A program made the position numbers and the translations under genes. Of a stretch of DNA of 64,000 bases, positions 1,107-1,784 are shown piece by piece; position 1 is the first letter of the stretch; each line of letters begins with the position of its first letter. The notes under the pieces are model-generated. The model saw only the letters and a program-made list of their open reading frames with translations, was not told the origin of the DNA and made no database searches. The DNA comes from SAR116 cluster bacterium AG-426-I14. Its GTDB lineage: Bacteria; Pseudomonadota; Alphaproteobacteria; Puniceispirillales; Marisalimonadaceae. Location of the stretch: assembly GCA_003210055.1 (NCBI GenBank), contig QCNS01000006.1:1-64000 (forward strand), in the 5' to 3' direction.

Positions 1107-1471
1107 TTGAAACTCCTTAAGAGCATTATCTGGCCAATCATTAATGATATTGCATCCAGGAAATCTTTTTTTTTACTCGCAAAATAATCTCTTGGATCAA
1201 TTAAGATAGTTTCATATCCACAATTCTTAGCAATTTCAACTAGTGATTGAGCTATATGAACTGCTCCTATTATAAATAACCTATGTTTCGGTATGATGGA
1301 GTGAAAAAAAATATTTTTTTCTCTATCAAAGTAACTATTTTCAGAAAAGTTTGACTTGTTTTCATGAATAATTGTTCTTGTACCATCATTACAGTTTGTC
1401 ATTAATGTTATTTGCTTTCTTTCCTTAATATTTTTTGCAATTTTAAGAATAATGGTATCTTTTTTTTTCAA
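1103..1471 (-). pseudogene. xdhC: XdhC, middle fragment (frameshifted gene, piece 2 of 3)
   Basis: This frame encodes the linker and the start of the nucleotide-binding XdhC_C domain: HRLFIIGAVHIAQSLVEIA followed by a beta strand ending ILIDPRDYF. It starts at a nine-base T run (1460-1468 plus strand) where the N-terminal piece ends and stops about 20 residues beyond a second nine-base run (1166-1174). The GxGxxA-type loop reads GAVHIA here. After the second run the translation turns into unrelated sequence and terminates. The three pieces total the usual XdhC length of roughly 310-320 residues. Confidence 0.7.
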
Positions 1472-1784
1472 GCGGTTGAATTAAAATCTTTAATTCACCG
1501 CCGCAAGCTAATCCAACCTCCCAAGCCATATTATTTGAAATTCCATAATCTTTAACTCTTAATTTTCTATCTTGAATTGAATCTATTGCTTCTGAAATAA
1601 CAGCATTTTCTACACATCCTCCTGAAACAGACCCAATTATATCTCCTTTATCATTTATTGCCATCTGTCCACCTACTGGTCTAGGGGAACTTCCCCAAGT
1701 AGAAATAACAGTAGCCAAAGCCAAACTTTGATTATTTTTAAGCCACTCAGCTGTTGGTGTAATAATATCATCTAAATCGTTCAT
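1443..1784 (-). pseudogene. xdhC: XdhC, N-terminal CoxI-type fragment (frameshifted gene, piece 1 of 3)
   Basis: The 113-residue piece holds the N-terminal XdhC/CoxI domain: WLKNNQSLALATVISTWGSSPRP at residues 14-36 in two conserved blocks, then GSVSGGCVENAVI (50-62), including the conserved cysteine of the SGGCVE motif, and LACGGELKILIQPLE. After the nine-base A run on the coding strand (plus 1460-1468) the frame changes and ends at once in RYHYS. Removing one base from the run joins it cleanly to the middle piece (EKKDTIILKIAKNIKE). The gene is divergent from bioY across a 110-base gap. Whether the breaks are real or assembly errors is discussed in the findings. Confidence 0.75.

Follow-up and report, generated by a model that had tools for sequence, protein, structure and literature searches.

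In the window, by which we mean the whole 64,000-nucleotide stretch of SAR116 contig sequence analysed here, xdhC is a genuine gene, and the deposited sequence does break it twice, beyond what chance would give. The breaks themselves are probably indels of assembly or amplification, so that it is likelier that they are no real feature of the genome, and the xdhC of the living cell would then be an ordinary gene for full-length XdhC.

One xdhC gene in three reading frames

The gene runs on the minus strand from 819 to 1784, and it changes frame inside two homopolymers of nine bases, at 1460-1468 and at 1166-1174, each T9 on the plus strand and A9 on the coding strand (Table 1). An earlier note on this DNA had read the three frames over this interval as successive parts of one XdhC protein broken at nine-base T runs; the runs lie exactly at those positions, and the three frames match PF02625, PF13478 positions 1-37 and PF13478 positions 46-125 in turn. 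Its further expectation, that restoring the frames gives continuous XdhC, is borne out by the joined reading, which matches both domains at full length (PF13478 1-125 at 9e-40; PF02625 1-68 at 6e-23). Only in that reading is the PF13478 match complete; it is split in the deposited frames, and the two frame changes leave the deposited sequence with no single intact xdhC open reading frame. Pieces 1 and 3 are in the same frame, and the two shifts therefore compensate, in agreement with the opposite signs that the note had assigned to them.

The A9 at 1460 sits right behind the N-terminal domain, and the frame of piece 1 continues to a stop 14 bases beyond it, while the homologous frame of piece 3 is already open just before the A9 at 1166. 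Other than at the two run-length breaks, the pieces hold no stop, deletion or further lesion; a third A9, in frame near the stop codon, is harmless and breaks nothing. Separate encoding of the XdhC domains was considered and is ruled out, since the second break falls inside the Rossmann domain. The start codon of the adjoining mocA-like gene comes shortly before the stop codon of xdhC, and both this gene and moaA are intact open frames, as had been read earlier. On its contig (C6) xdhC occupies bases 819-1784, at most 1.8 kb from the contig end.

Table 1. Positions of the xdhC pieces, the neighbouring genes and the homopolymer frameshifts elsewhere in the assembly
Feature	Contig	Positions	Strand	Domain match or run
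xdhC piece 1 (XdhC_CoxI domain)	C6	1443..1784	-	PF02625, 1e-23, model positions 1-68
A9 at first xdhC frame break	C6	1460..1468	-	A9
xdhC piece 2 (linker and Rossmann domain start)	C6	1103..1471	-	PF13478 positions 1-37
A9 at second xdhC frame break, within Rossmann domain	C6	1166..1174	-	A9
xdhC piece 3 (remaining Rossmann domain)	C6	819..1106	-	PF13478 positions 46-125
Third A9 in xdhC, in frame, near stop codon	C6	829..837	-	A9
mocA/mobA-like nucleotidyltransferase, intact	C6	233..826	-	PF12804, 1e-28
moaA, intact	C6	7517..8521
DUF3576 gene frameshift	C12	43871..43877		A7
parB frameshift	C12	48489..48497		A9
rsmG frameshift	C12	50471..50477		T7
aroE-like gene frameshift	C5	71445..71454		A10

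The break sites in relatives

The closest named matches are SAR116 cluster bacteria, mostly single-cell genomes named AG- or AH-. The comparison of the locus with related genomes, which the earlier note had suggested, found xdhC intact in 49 of the 50 distinct homologous coding sequences. Not one of these 50 distinct relatives has an A run longer than seven at either break site: at the first there is no notable A run at all, and the second has at most seven A; there is therefore no conserved slippage signal. Gap-free alignment with the relatives gives a native A8 at 1460 and A7 at 1166, and on that alignment appears to favour one base too many at 1460 and two too many at 1166 over a single base missing at 1166, although a native A10 at the latter site, with one extra Lys, also fits the relatives. 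Of the break sizes proposed in the note, the one extra base at 1460-1468 thus stands, and of the two that it left side by side for 1166-1174 the two-base excess is preferred to the missing base.

The one exception among the 50 is AH-287-L13 (L086/L279, G019:C13), whose xdhC is frameshifted at a different A run, one base shorter than that of its relatives, so that the frame shifts near the C terminus; the contig bearing it begins inside the gene. In several SAR116 assemblies (L012, L026, L029, L030, L086, L087 and L280) xdhC is found on or near the edge of its contig, a placement that may be commoner than expected. In two genomes of the same genus, of 59% and 51% completeness, neither xdhC nor the neighbouring BioY had a match, and mocA matched only weakly; these genomes are uninformative on conservation at the species level.

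Constraint on the pieces and the question of decay

Against twelve relatives, differences by codon position were 0.20/0.07/0.51 for the N-terminal piece, 0.34/0.31/0.51 for the middle piece and 0.30/0.19/0.51 for the C-terminal piece, that is, a third-position excess in all three, strong in the first and third and weaker in the middle. Identities of the pieces to same-family genomes were about 78, 50 and 64%, with xdhC overall above the genome-wide ortholog median (58% against the relative G032). Relative-rate counts gave no acceleration in pieces 1 and 3, and in the middle piece a mild lineage excess of changes (9-15 versus 3-11 in the comparisons made).

The assembly encodes eight molybdenum-hydroxylase large subunits with intact open frames (contigs C4, C7, C13, C20 and C41; L245-L252). 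A second XdhC was sought in the same assembly, which is 78% complete, and none was found. In R. capsulatus lacking XdhC, xanthine dehydrogenase lacks its molybdenum cofactor (PMC2997495). The ratio of eight hydroxylase large subunits to one xdhC suggests that a single chaperone may serve many enzymes.

An old pseudogene is unlikely because the gene has no other lesion, its pieces are constrained, and the eight client enzymes are intact with this as the sole XdhC found; we therefore rejected long-standing decay as the leading reading. The breaks could instead be recent, with real slippage mutations in hypermutable A runs having inactivated xdhC, as early gene loss or a short-lived population variant. 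We rank such recent mutation, perhaps partly rescued by transcriptional slippage, second after sequence error, as a tentative explanation with roughly one chance in its favour for three against. In AT-rich genomes the first lesion is usually slippage at a homopolymer, as described for Blochmannia (PMC3017870). Once one hit had inactivated the gene, selection on it would be relaxed and a second could follow, which would explain the pair with no local sequence error, and the mild excess of changes falls just in the segment between the breaks, the flanking pieces having none. However, the gene is otherwise undamaged, the third-position excess extends to all three pieces at above-median identity, the clients remain intact beside no second XdhC, and the cluster of breaks in parB, rsmG and the DUF3576 gene, to which we now turn, would be left unexplained.

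Other homopolymer frameshifts in the assembly

We read 1.57 of the 1.88 Mb of the assembly for frameshifts. Comparison with the proteins of G032 yielded breaks only in xdhC and in a DUF3576 gene, besides one weak join; parB (A9, confirmed by wider comparison), rsmG (T7) and an aroE-like gene (A10) came from scanning long homopolymers by composition and then inspecting the candidates and checking them against Pfam. In each of these four genes the shift is readable as one extra base in the run. Of the candidate phase changes from the homopolymer scan, many were ordinary gene boundaries with a nearby start codon, and the scan for frame changes lacking a start codon was too noisy for a clean count.

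The breaks in the DUF3576 gene, parB and rsmG all fall within 6.6 kb on one contig, and the two in xdhC are at most 300 bp apart. When six events were distributed over coding runs at rates that depend on run length, simulation gave a pair within 300 bp with p of about 0.01, a triple within 6.7 kb with p of about 0.002 and both together with p of about 0.0004, values that are indicative only, since the same data supplied the rates and the cluster sizes were chosen after the clusters had been seen. The grouping of breaks in genes that are unrelated, among them the widely conserved parB and rsmG, points to a locally poor consensus.

The genome is near 70% A+T, and runs of nine or more are present in 122 of 480 ortholog-supported genes. 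Almost all of the approximately 190 coding A9/T9 runs scanned are in frame, and a pervasively error-ridden assembly, such as one of unpolished long reads, was rejected on that ground. Of the controls, G032 was free of convincing frameshifts over about 473 kb of matched sequence, and over about 281 kb of G006 there were a few candidates, some of them at runs of seven and eight; frameshift rates thus differ between assemblies. Two stretches of this second SAR116 single-cell genome (G006:C2 20532-20597 and 37369-37428; L270) hold candidate homopolymer-associated frame changes.

Sequence error as the preferred explanation

Homopolymer error, decay and polymerase slippage had been offered unranked in the earlier note. 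We place homopolymer error first because of the other clustered homopolymer frameshifts, core genes included, and the position of xdhC near a contig end; long-standing decay is disfavoured as above, and slippage finds no conserved signal. Run-length errors in homopolymers would enter at amplification, sequencing or assembly and be fixed in the consensus where, as we infer, local coverage was probably poor. The source assembly appears, from its kin and from contig numbers that run from longest to shortest, to be a single-cell (or similar) draft, and the titles of many same-family relatives mark them as SCGC single-cell assemblies. For the workflow that produced many such relatives, the benchmark rate is 3.0 indels per 100 kb (PMC9771814, PMC6122165, PMC11247762). 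By extrapolation, that rate would give tens of indels per genome of such size, and it is high enough to explain the xdhC breaks.

In favour of sequence error there is also the frameshifted xdhC of AH-287-L13, likewise at an A run and at a contig start, and the presence of eight intact client enzymes, yet no other XdhC. Against it, the assembly is not generally poor, with nearly all its long coding runs in frame, and in control G032 the roughly 0.47 Mb compared contained no convincing frameshift. Genuine mutations likewise arise in long homopolymers and depend on run length in the same way.

Transcriptional slippage and programmed control

The breaks might also be real frameshifts that the cell tolerates, with RNA polymerase slippage on A9 correcting both frames in a minority of transcripts and yielding some full-length XdhC, an account that we consider improbable. 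In bacteria, slippage is efficient on stretches of nine A or T, and for endosymbiont genes frameshifted at poly(A) (Buchnera, Blochmannia) the reported share of corrected transcripts is 12-50% (PMC5009743, PMC3017870). The placement of both xdhC breaks inside runs of nine is in keeping with such rescue, as are the conserved pieces and the intact client enzymes. Two things count against it, namely that at neither site does any of the 50 relatives exceed A7, and that corrections of opposite sign are both needed in each transcript, so that two minority frequencies would have to be multiplied to give the yield. Rescue by slippage is possible biochemically at A9, but it is not needed. The fullest version of this account, in which the only XdhC found carries two real and opposite poly(A) frameshifts and double transcriptional slippage suffices for eight molybdenum hydroxylases in a free-living AT-rich marine bacterium, is less probable again, and we regard it as quite unlikely.

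Two long runs with opposite shifts in one gene, the first directly after the N-terminal domain, could also be seen as a programmed or phase-variable switch by which the A runs turn XdhC on and off. The absence of conservation in relatives argues against a programmed device, the runs being missing at both sites in all 50; moreover, the second break bisects the Rossmann domain, and runs of this length are commonplace at such an A+T content. We give such a switch almost no credence, the least of any explanation considered.

Relation to known systems and significance

Joined, the gene resembles the XdhC / CoxI / PaoD chaperones for the molybdenum cofactor (PF02625 with PF13478), having both domains at full length, whereas the deposited SAR116 frame is interrupted twice. 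Some XdhC homologues are directly followed by a mocA-like gene (PMC2997495), the same arrangement as at the SAR116 locus. With the genes of Buchnera and Blochmannia that are frameshifted at poly(A) and rescued by transcriptional slippage (PMC3017870, PMC5009743) it shares an AT-rich genome, a frameshift at A9 and a gene otherwise undamaged, but it differs from them in having two compensating breaks, unseen in relatives, and in belonging to a free-living marine lineage. To the indel errors of single-cell drafts the likeness is in breaks that are confined to homopolymers, clustered and near a contig end, with a published SCGC indel rate that is sufficient.

If the breaks are errors, as is likelier, split genes in AT-rich drafts should be checked for homopolymer errors before they are called pseudogenes. 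If they are real, a common ocean lineage would have eight molybdenum enzymes held back by a single broken chaperone or, alternatively, rescue by slippage would extend from insect endosymbionts to free-living bacteria.
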